In this document: positions 31,093 through 33,970 of the stretch, in pieces
How positions within the stretch are numbered: position 1 is the stretch's first letter
Layout: each line of letters starts with the position of its first letter
Origin: Haloplanus aerogenes
GTDB taxonomy: Archaea; Halobacteriota; Halobacteria; Halobacteriales; Haloferacaceae
Direction: 5' to 3'
NCBI RefSeq assembly: GCF_003856835.1
Contig: NZ_CP034145.1
Span: 3,224,001 to 3,288,000 of the forward strand
Length of the DNA stretch: 64,000 nucleotides
Notes under the pieces: model-generated
Database searches by the model: none
The model's input: only the letters and a program-made list of their open reading frames with translations
Told to the model about the DNA's origin: nothing
Program-made: the position numbers and the translations under genes

Positions 31093-32046
31093 CTACTCCA
31101 GCCGGCCCACGTCCGAGAGAATCGCCGTCGCCGTCTCCGGGCCGCCCGCACCGCGGCCGCTCAGGTGTAGCTGGCCCGCGTTGACCGTGTCGAACTGGAC
31201 GATGTTGCGCGTCCCCGTGACCGCCAGCGCATCGTGCTGGGGGACGAGTCGCGGTCCCACGCGGACGCCGTCGGCCGTCGCCTCGCCGATCAGGCGAACG
31301 GTCCGCCCGTCCTCCGCGGCTAGATCGAGCGCGCTCGCCGGAATCGACTTGATCCCCTCGACCGTCGCGTCGTCGAGGCTGTACACCTGATCGCCCTGAC
31401 TCAGCACGTTCGCCAGGATGACGAACTTCAGCGCCGCGTCCGTCCCCTCCACGTCGAAGGCGGGGTCGGCCTCCGCGACGCCGAGGTCCTGTGCCTCCGC
31501 GAGGACGTGTTCGTACCCCAGCCCTTCGGCGGCCATCCGCGAGAGGATGAAGTTGGCCGTCCCGTTGAGGACGCCGCGCGCCGCCGTGATCTGTCCGGGG
31601 CCGAAGTCCGCGATGGTCGAGAGGATGGGGATGGCGCCGCCGACGGCCGCCTCGAACTGCACCGTCCCGGCGCTCTCGGCTTCGAGCGCCCGCAGGTCGG
31701 CGTAGCGTTCGGCGACGGGACCCTTGTTCGCCAGCACGACGTGCCGGTCGCGTTCCAGCGCCGCCTGGACGTGCGAGAAGCCGGGTTCGGCGTCGCCGAG
31801 CGTCGTCGGCGTCGCTTCGACCAGTACGTCGTAGTCGGCTGCGAGCGCGTCCTCGGGGGCACCGTCCCCGACCACACCCTCGCGCTCCTTGCGGTCGAAC
31901 ACGGCCTCGGCGTCGAGGCCGCTGGCGTCGACCGCCGACGACCGGGAGTCGGCCACCGCCGTCACGACGTGGCCGTACTCCGGCGCGAGTTCGACGACGG
32001 AGCGGCCGACCGCACCGACACCGACGACGGCGAGACGGAGGCTCAT
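31093..32046 (-). CDS. hom: Homoserine dehydrogenase
   Basis: A 317-residue NAD(P)-dependent enzyme that reduces aspartate semialdehyde to homoserine, the branch towards threonine and methionine. The Rossmann motif VVGVGAVGRSVVEL is at residues 7-20. GGAIPILSTIADFGPG near 152 and the catalytic region GLGYEHVLAEAQDLGVAEAD near 189 are typical. There is no ACT domain in this protein; one is encoded by the overlapping upstream gene. Start and stop overlap (ATGA) imply coupled translation. Confidence 0.95.
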   Translation of the reverse strand: MSLRLAVVGVGAVGRSVVELAPEYGHVVTAVADSRSSAVDASGLDAEAVFDRKEREGVVGDGAPEDALAADYDVLVEATPTTLGDAEPGFSHVQAALERDRHVVLANKGPVAERYADLRALEAESAGTVQFEAAVGGAIPILSTIADFGPGQITAARGVLNGTANFILSRMAAEGLGYEHVLAEAQDLGVAEADPAFDVEGTDAALKFVILANVLSQGDQVYSLDDATVEGIKSIPASALDLAAEDGRTVRLIGEATADGVRVGPRLVPQHDALAVTGTRNIVQFDTVNAGQLHLSGRGAGGPETATAILSDVGRLE

Positions 32047-32618
32047 TCGCCCACCTCCACGAGCGGTTCGATCACGTCCAACTCCTTCTCGTCGGCAATC
32101 TCGCGGACGTGCGCGAACACCTCGTCCATCCGTCCGGTCCGGGTCGCCAGCCGGAGGCGCGCGCTCGACGCGCTTCCCCGTCCTTCGGGCGCCGAGAGCG
32201 AGAGATCCGCGAGCGTCGCGTCCGTACTCGACTCGATGCGCCGCAAGGTGTCGGAGAGGTCGGTGTCCACGATGTCACCGACGAGCAGGAGCGTCAACTG
32301 CTCGCCGTACCGCTCCGCGCCGGCCTGGATGACGTTGACGCCCTCCTCGCGGAGCGCTTCGACGATGGTCTCGAACCGATCCGGCGGACACTCCACGTCA
32401 ACCTCGACAGGGATGTGGCCACGCGGCGTGAGGTTCCCGCGTTCGTGGAATATCGAGAGCAAGTTGCCGCCGTTCTCCGCGATAGGGCGGAGTGCCGACA
32501 GCAGTTCGCCCGGTTTGTCGACGAGTTCCAGCCGGATAGTGTGCGTCTGTGGACGCTCGCCACCGTCGGTTTCGGGGTCGGCGGCGGCATCCTCGGTGGT
32601 GACTGCCTCGTCGCTCAT
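32043..32618 (-). CDS. ACT-domain amino acid-binding protein
   Basis: A 191-residue acidic protein with an ACT-type regulatory domain at about residues 27-100 (TIRLELVDKPGELLSALRPI, NLLSIFHERGNLTPRGHIPV). A second, diverged ACT-like half (LTLLLVGDIVDTDLSDTLRR) follows. ACT domains bind amino acids to regulate enzymes. Directly upstream of and coupled to hom, it very likely serves as the regulatory subunit sensing threonine or methionine. The ATG at 32618 directly follows the stop of a candidate leader ORF. Confidence 0.88.
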   Translation of the reverse strand: MSDEAVTTEDAAADPETDGGERPQTHTIRLELVDKPGELLSALRPIAENGGNLLSIFHERGNLTPRGHIPVEVDVECPPDRFETIVEALREEGVNVIQAGAERYGEQLTLLLVGDIVDTDLSDTLRRIESSTDATLADLSLSAPEGRGSASSARLRLATRTGRMDEVFAHVREIADEKELDVIEPLVEVGE

Positions 32619-32738
32619 TCAGGCAGTCACCCCCGCGGCACGACCCGTCGACGCAATAATTGTAATCGGCGACGGGGAGGGGCCGCGGGGTAGCTCCGTG
32701 CCGACACGTCGACTGCCGGTAGTCATGCCGCTGGGCAT
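32619..32738 (-). CDS. Candidate leader peptide of the ACT-hom operon
   Basis: A 39-residue frame. It begins MPSGMTTGSRRVGTE, contains a Thr/Ile-rich stretch PITIIASTG and ends AAGVTA; its TGA directly precedes the ACT gene ATG. A TATA-like box on the minus strand (CTTATAC, about 32760-32768) predicts transcription start at about 32738, exactly this ATG, so it would be leaderless. Threonine and isoleucine are end products downstream of homoserine, as in bacterial thr leader peptides. The peptide may regulate the operon by reinitiation or attenuation. Not proven. Confidence 0.4.
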   Translation of the reverse strand: MPSGMTTGSRRVGTELPRGPSPSPITIIASTGRAAGVTA

Positions 32739-32757
32739 GGTACACACTGTGCCGGTC

Positions 32758-32770
32758 GGGTATAAGATTG
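32758..32770 (-). promoter_or_regulatory. Promoter of the ACT-hom operon
   Basis: The minus-strand sequence ATCTTATACCC is a good archaeal TATA box about 26 bp before the ATG at 32738. Between this box and the ACT gene lies only the 39-codon open frame. Confidence 0.5.
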
Positions 32771-32788
32771 CATCGGTCGCGGACTGTC

Positions 32789-33970
32789 TTACGTCGCCGC
32801 GGCGGGAGACGGGTCGCCGGCCGCCTCGACCGGCGACTCGGCCCGGTCGTGTGCGAGACGGACGACCGTCCGCTCGCCGTCGGTGTCGAACGTCAACTCA
32901 CCGTTCGCGGCCTCCGCGACGGACCGCGCGACCCAGAGCCCCAGCCCGCTGCCGTGTTTGAGTTGCGTGATCTCCGTGTCGCCCGAGAGGATGGCCCGCT
33001 CGTCGTCCGGAATACCCGGCCCGTCGTCCTCGACGCGAACGTCGACCGTCCCGTCGTGGGTGGTGGCAGTAACCCGGATATCGGAGCCACCGTGTTCGAC
33101 CGCGTTCTCGACCAGTTCGGCCAGGGCAGTCTCGATTCGGTCGTCCGCCCAGATCCACAGGTTCGTCGGCACGTCGACGGTGATATCTACGTCCGCCTCG
33201 TCGGCGACCACCTCGCGCACCTCGTCGACGGCGTCGGTGGCGACGTCGTGGACGTTCAGCCGCGCGTTCGGCGTCGACCGCCGGTCCAGCGCTTCGACCA
33301 TCGTCTTGGTCTTTTCCGCGAGGCCGCCGACCGTCCGGGAGCGCTGGTGGAGGGCGTCGGCCGTCTCGGCGAGCGATCCGTCGAGTTCGTCCACCAGCCG
33401 TTCGGACTGCCCGATCAACACCGTGGCGTCGTTTCGCAGGTTGTGACGCAGGACGCGACTGAGAACGGCGAACTTCTCGCGCTCGCGGGCCAGTTGCTCC
33501 GCGCGCACCCGCCGGGCGTCGTGGACACCGATGATGACGTGCGCGGCCGCGCTGATCGCGAGGACGTTCCCCGCCGCGAGCGCGTCGGCCGTCGTCACCG
33601 TCCCGAGTGCGCCACGGTAGGCGCCGTGGCCGAGGATGACACCTCCGAGGACGACGAGTCCGAGGAAGTTCCAGACGGCGATCCGCACCGCGTTCGGCGT
33701 CGAGAAACCGCTTCGATACAGGAGTGCGCCAGCGACGATCAGACCGAGACAGACGACGACACCCAGCGCCCCCAGTCCCAGCCCGACTGCCGGCTGCCCC
33801 GAGGCGAGATACGGGGTGAGGTTGGGAAGAAAGAGGGCGACACCGGTCAAACTGACCGCCGTACAGGCGCCGAAGCGGGCGAGTCGTTCCCGACGACGTC
33901 TGCCGCCGTCGGGACCCGCCTCGAACAGCCGAACGAGCGTGCGGTCGATCTGAGTGAGGAGGCCAGCCAT
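32789..33970 (-). CDS. Membrane-bound sensor histidine kinase
   Basis: A 393-residue kinase. Residues 30-145 hold about four transmembrane helices as the sensor part. The phosphoacceptor H-box VLRHNLRND is near residue 178, the N-box ELVENAVEHG near 286, G1 DDGPGIP near 322 and G2 GSGLGLWVA near 342, so the catalytic core is complete. The HNLRND H-box is typical of haloarchaeal kinases. No response regulator is adjacent, so the partner is unknown. The ligand cannot be read from the short membrane domain. Confidence 0.88.
   Translation of the reverse strand: MAGLLTQIDRTLVRLFEAGPDGGRRRRERLARFGACTAVSLTGVALFLPNLTPYLASGQPAVGLGLGALGVVVCLGLIVAGALLYRSGFSTPNAVRIAVWNFLGLVVLGGVILGHGAYRGALGTVTTADALAAGNVLAISAAAHVIIGVHDARRVRAEQLAREREKFAVLSRVLRHNLRNDATVLIGQSERLVDELDGSLAETADALHQRSRTVGGLAEKTKTMVEALDRRSTPNARLNVHDVATDAVDEVREVVADEADVDITVDVPTNLWIWADDRIETALAELVENAVEHGGSDIRVTATTHDGTVDVRVEDDGPGIPDDERAILSGDTEITQLKHGSGLGLWVARSVAEAANGELTFDTDGERTVVRLAHDRAESPVEAAGDPSPAAAT

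Follow-up and report, generated by a model that had tools for sequence, protein, structure and literature searches.

The 64,000-nucleotide window of Haloplanus aerogenes DNA analysed here raises the question of why a very small ORF lies between a TATA box and the first gene of an operon encoding an ACT-domain protein and homoserine dehydrogenase (ACT-hom). In bacteria, leader peptides that control amino-acid operons are textbook knowledge, an example being the thr operon leader (thrL, Rfam Thr_leader), a short ORF with Thr and Ile codons preceding homoserine dehydrogenase, but this kind of control has hardly been reported in archaea. Comparison across haloarchaea suggests that the ORF is very probably a conserved, translated leader coupled to ACT, and its best reading, which we consider probable, is that of a Thr/Ile-sensing leader peptide forming the first cistron of the ACT-hom operon.

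Position of the ORF in front of ACT-hom

32760..32765, minus strand: TATA box TTATAC, 27 nt 5' of the leader ATG, recognised by sequence
32619..32738, minus strand: leader peptide ORF, ATG at 32738, TGA at 32619, 39 codons plus stop, presumed leaderless
32627..32634, minus strand: Shine-Dalgarno-like sequence for ACT, GGGGGUGA, inside the leader ORF, recognised by sequence
32043..32618, minus strand: gene for a protein with an ACT domain (Pfam PF01842 at E 2e-5, narrowly below the Pfam cut-off)
31093..32046, minus strand: hom, homoserine dehydrogenase (PF00742, E 1.5e-47; NF004976, above its cut-off)

The leader ORF of the window translates as MPSGMTTGSRRVGTELPRGPSPSPITIIASTGRAAGVTA*. As the TTATAC box is located 27 nt before its ATG, transcription is predicted to start at this ATG, to within about 3 nt, and the leader transcript is therefore presumed to be leaderless, with its 5' end at the ATG. 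At its other end, the base following the TGA (32618) is the first base of ACT. The initial annotation had described a 39-codon ORF with a Thr/Ile-rich stretch, placed by its TATA box at the predicted transcription start and ending in TGA directly before the ATG of an ACT-homoserine dehydrogenase operon, and these particulars were confirmed: length and stop were as described, the block PITII was present, the box lay at 32765..32760, and the gene identities were upheld by the Pfam and NCBIfam matches given above. The best NCBIfam match of the ACT gene product was the ACT tail of threonine ammonia-lyase. On both strands of the window, four TATA-proximal small ORFs were found under the criteria of the analysis, three of which end near a long ORF, with only the hom leader ORF directly touching an identified gene.

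Conservation of the ORF and of its Thr/Ile block

ACT upstream regions from 153 haloarchaeal loci were searched for an ATG located 26-36 nt after a TATA-like box and opening an ORF that ends near the ACT start codon. A TATA-proximal ORF with its stop touching or overlapping the ACT start codon was found in 146 of the 153 regions, a proportion that is not an unbiased estimate, since the finder requires a stop near the start codon and a few of the 146 have weak boxes. In most relatives a TATA-like hexamer lies about 27-32 nt 5' of the ORF start and GGAGGTG or GGGGGTG, resembling a Shine-Dalgarno sequence, occupies the equivalent place within the ORF. The leader stop reaches 0, 4, 8 or 11 nt into the ACT start codon (0 or 4 nt in most, 8 or 11 in some); the 4-nt overlap is seen in most relatives, and in the window TGA and ATG adjoin. 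The combination typical of termination-reinitiation, in which adjoining or overlapping stop and start codons are preceded by a Shine-Dalgarno sequence, is thus present at this locus. The ORF was as short as 11 codons in several families, whereas most Haloferacaceae and Halobacteriaceae had 33-69 codons; within the Haloferacaceae many different lengths occurred, all of which keep the frame relation to ACT. The element is present in several Haloferax species.

The alignment of upstream regions across Halobacteria that the initial annotation had proposed as a check showed start, stop and Thr/Ile codons to be conserved, and the loss of frame in close relatives that it had named as counter-evidence was not seen, the reading frame being kept in every Haloplanus genome examined. 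Open frames are plentiful in GC-rich DNA, yet an ORF present by chance has next to no probability here, as two families conserve its start, stop and core, and most of the order shares its start and stop; the cross-genome comparison refutes it. The frame conserved throughout Haloplanus would also suit a functional small protein encoded ahead of ACT. This is very improbable, however, as beyond the core the peptide varies from genus to genus and elsewhere has shrunk to as few as 11 residues or been lost, and the constraint on nucleotides is stronger than that on the peptide. Among 12 Haloplanus genomes the leader ORF showed 93.1% nucleotide identity, and third codon positions were 91.1% identical in the leader ORF versus 65.7% in ACT (upstream DNA, 39%), indicating selection on nucleotides as well as on frame. 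Codon-substitution counts gave an excess of synonymous changes over other frames in Haloplanus and in genera g5 and g10, but they did not favour selection on the peptide in Haloferax or in some mixed groups, and the case for a leader peptide does not, given this mixed outcome, rest on them.

The leader ORF was absent in the Halorussus family (f17; L017-L020, L030, L088, L089), where the TATA box is followed at a short distance by ACT itself, a state equivalent to a natural deletion of the leader element. Four ACT copies (L041, L046, L153 and L154, two of them second copies in their genomes) are preceded only by an 11-13 codon ORF that overlaps the ACT start by 8 nt and has no Thr/Ile block.

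The part of the peptide that recurs between genera is a short block of Thr and Ile residues.

32655..32666, minus strand: core Ile-Thr-Ile-Ile (ATT ACA ATT ATT), codons 25-28, within the Thr/Ile block conserved across genera

In 50 non-redundant long ORFs, Thr made up 15.1% of residues and Ile 3.3%, whereas dinucleotide shuffles kept free of stops gave 9.8% and 1.5% (z 9.1 and 8.2, respectively), with z values that ignore shared ancestry, which is common to the sequences in all statistics reported here. Thr and Ile were the two most enriched of the 20 amino acids in these long ORFs (Haloferacaceae and Halobacteriaceae). They also interchange across genera, the core taking forms such as ITII, TTII, TGII, TTTV, TII, IIT and TT: SPITII in Haloplanus, TPITIIGS in genus g10, TSTTIIGS, TSTGIIGS or TSTTTVGS in g6, TPTIID or TSIIRP in g78, APIITG in g86, SPTT in Haloferax and PTT or STT in most others. 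In the Halobacteriaceae the variants were TTT, TTI, TITGI and TITVI (QPTTT, PPTTIV, QPTTIR, VSTITGI, VSTITVI). Furthermore, the codons used are rare ones, ACA accounting for 72% of core Thr codons, compared with 9% in the remainder of these ORFs and 4% across ACT genes, and ATT or ATA for 62% of core Ile codons versus 16%. Of 173 core codons beginning with A, 172 encoded Thr or Ile, which speaks against a loop that is simply A-rich; this count follows partly from construction, the core window having been chosen for Thr plus Ile, whereas the ACA preference does not.

The leader ORF therefore carries codons for the end products of its own operon, Thr and Ile, as is expected of an attenuator. It was, however, also considered that the ORF might do no more than capture ribosomes at a leaderless start and pass them to ACT by termination-reinitiation, with no amino-acid sensing and with a Thr/Ile content arising from other constraints. 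Such plain coupling would fit the stop/start overlap in nearly all genomes and the strict coupling that reporters revealed for overlapping genes of Haloferax volcanii (PMC6728339). It would also fit the short ORFs of 11-17 codons (Haloarculaceae, Natrialbaceae and others), which retain only start, ribosome-binding site and stop, and which showed no Thr/Ile enrichment in the same shuffle comparison. We regard it as rather unlikely, as it leaves unexplained the Thr/Ile block, the rare ACA and ATT codons, the conserved pairing described below and the 91% third-position identity. In most other families the short ORFs lack Thr/Ile codons, which makes Thr/Ile sensing improbable as the original role of the ORF. 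The earlier proposals of a leader peptide upstream of ACT-hom, and of the Thr/Ile-rich stretch as its control codons, gain support from the conservation of the ORF, the interchange of Thr and Ile between genera, the rare codons and a parallel upstream of ilvB.

Structure of the leader RNA

32666..32704, minus strand: hairpin P1 (outer pairs UCGGC/GCCGA), which runs up to the core codons, with compensatory changes across genera
32722..32731, minus strand: 5' strand of helix P0, GCGGCAUGAC, codons 3-6, forming ten pairs with 32644..32635
32635..32644, minus strand: 3' strand of P0, GUCGUGCCGC, part of which can instead pair with 32690..32682
32682..32690, minus strand: CCCCGCGGC, able to pair with GCCGCGGGG at 32639..32631 to the exclusion of P0 (minimum-energy fold of the window)
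32598..32631, minus strand: 11-bp hairpin GGUGACUGCCU/AGGCAGUCACC spanning the stop codon of the leader and the start codon of ACT

The leader region of the window folded better than chance (z = -4.8; 0 of 200 shuffles). Haloplanus sequences fold either as P0 or as the alternative pairing, the two being mutually exclusive. In one of them (L098) a partner change restores a Watson-Crick pair of P0, and P0 pairing is kept in other genera. Across 25 relatives, P1 (UCGGCACGGAGC...GCUCC..GCCGA) terminates directly before the core codons and P0 joins codons 3-5 to a segment that follows soon after the core; paired cells made up 81.5%, versus 30-44% in slid controls, and double changes were seen in 16 cells versus 7.3 in shuffles. 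The peptide motifs MxTGT and GTE follow, at least in part, from these helices. The hairpin at the stop and start codons is kept in most other Haloplanus species, with a T-to-G change opposite C in L094, L098 and L100 as judged by eye, and its 3' arm sits in an otherwise variable N-terminal coding region of ACT.

An RNA covariance model, R1, was built from sequences other than those of Haloplanus, Haloferax and Halobacteriaceae. It gave one match per genome in 35 of 234 genomes, and all 35 matches lay before ACT: 23 adjoin listed ACT positions, and the other 12, read individually, precede ACT with a leader ORF. The window leader, though not used in building R1, matched the model end to end with 28 bits; it was missed in the whole-genome search, where stricter filters applied. 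No Rfam family matched the hom leader up to E = 1.

Nucleotide conservation beyond the needs of the peptide, covarying helices around a conserved single-stranded junction and a model specific to the ACT-hom operon would also be in keeping with a structured RNA whose ligand is a metabolite or protein, as in a riboswitch or in autoregulation by the ACT protein, with the ORF being secondary. This is nevertheless improbable. The junction varies as nucleotides (ACAACA, AUUACAAUUAUU, AUAAUU, ACAAUUAUC) and is conserved as Thr/Ile codons, the reading frame and stop overlap hold while the length of the ORF varies from 33 to 69 codons, and no Rfam family matches.

Proposed mechanism and related leaders

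A tiny ORF at the start of the messenger, with rare Thr/Ile codons set in a conserved folded RNA, suggests that the ribosome itself probably measures Thr and Ile. We infer that translation begins at the 5'-end ATG of a leaderless transcript, the ribosome unfolding the leader as it proceeds and meeting, directly behind hairpin P1, the short run of rare Thr/Ile codons. Its speed at the core would be set by the supply of charged tRNA-Thr and tRNA-Ile. This speed would select between alternative folds, either P0 or the structure surrounding the ribosome-binding site of ACT, and would also decide whether ribosomes arrive at the stop touching the ACT start, where they may reinitiate.

An intrinsic terminator, sought as a GC hairpin followed by a U-tract, was not found in 32200-32850, where no site resembled one. 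Output at the level of translation is favoured, the alternative being factor-dependent transcription termination. In a stall model, a ribosome-sized stretch was blocked at each codon and the RNA refolded. Although mutually exclusive folds exist in Haloplanus and the helices are conserved in relatives, stalling on the core left the accessibility of the ACT ribosome-binding site unraised (mean change -0.005 ± 0.014 over 60 leaders, under a simple fold model), and the simplest form of translational attenuator is therefore unsupported. Reinitiation at ACT is expected from the adjoining stop and start, given the reporter work on overlapping pairs in H. volcanii (PMC6728339). For bacteria it has been argued that, where a stop touches a start, stalling could lower reinitiation, which would be the wrong sign for feedback (PMC4833913). 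Stalling would likewise be predicted to lower ACT translation here unless another route opens, and the remaining options for the readout are a fold change beyond the model, RNA stability, or factor-dependent termination upon uncoupling of ribosome and polymerase.

The hom leader resembles thrL/Thr_leader, by general knowledge rather than by sequence, in being a short Thr/Ile ORF before homoserine dehydrogenase. It differs in being presumably leaderless, in having a stop that abuts the first gene, and in having neither a U-tract terminator nor an Rfam match. With the ilvB-II motif and the Corynebacterium ilvBNC leader it shares a conserved upstream ORF, amino acids of its own pathway and conserved RNA structure (PMC10272879). 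The Corynebacterium leader has been attributed to transcription attenuation and tested with reporters (PMC10272879), whereas the haloarchaeal leader is without a terminator and is known here from sequence comparison. The overlapping pairs of H. volcanii have the same ATGA or adjoining stop/start and internal Shine-Dalgarno sequence (PMC6728339), but consist of two ordinary genes, unlike the hom pair, where a leader peptide ORF bearing putative control codons stands upstream. Small ORFs upstream of haloarchaeal genes are also found among the Haloferax uORFs, of 15-31 residues in 150-250 nt 5'-UTRs; in the parts of that work consulted, no amino-acid control was proposed and homoserine was unmentioned (PMC4983044). 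No case of leader-peptide control of an archaeal amino-acid operon was found in the open-access papers searched.

A second candidate leader was found upstream of ilvB in the same genomes.

Near G000:C1 2137935, minus strand, in the genome of the window: ilvB leader, ending IVGA(V/L/A); a hairpin is located at the stop (loci L157-L173, L250-L277)

Here the operon starts with a TATA-proximal ORF. In most Haloplanus its end reads PIVGAV or PIVGAL, and other families share the ...IVGAx form. Its last codons lie within a hairpin GGGGC/GCCCC, in most cases about 100-190 nt before ilvB. A scan with the IVGA pattern matched 28 of 117 genomes and a reversed control pattern none. The ilvB leader was enriched in Ile and Val and not in Thr, the conserved last residues being part of the search pattern for most of the leaders counted. 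Four ilvB regions gave no Rfam match. By contrast, no such upstream ORF was found before thrC and trpC, which are apparently leaderless, before trpE or, by eye, before hisG, so that leaders of this type are not generic to amino-acid genes. As read from these sequences, each of the two leaders carries codons for its own pathway, and the Ile/Val codons before ilvB support the general leader-peptide idea. We are inclined, by a modest degree, to see in them a haloarchaeal family of leaderless, amino-acid-specific leader peptides (Thr/Ile for ACT-hom, Ile/Val/Leu for ilvB), which the ribosome would read on folded RNA at the transcript 5' end without bacterial terminators, as an archaeal counterpart of attenuation. 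If so, the logic of ribosome-sensing leaders would work with a leaderless start and with archaeal transcription and translation machinery.

A separate observation concerns the leuA-like gene before ilvB (L359, G000:C1:2138200-2139285, minus strand; L360-L371), which in several genomes has no ATG or GTG start in its catalytic frame. Instead, an ORF of 25-27 codons (MSNDMEDSSDTPADRVLPGHVGPH...) begins at a TATA-proximal ATG in a different frame, within DNA that is nearly invariant over several families. From its sequence, this 5' arrangement resembles either programmed +1 frameshifting or the use of a non-standard start, and an alignment of the leuA2 5' end is listed in the supplement of a Haloferax annotation paper (PMC8305020).
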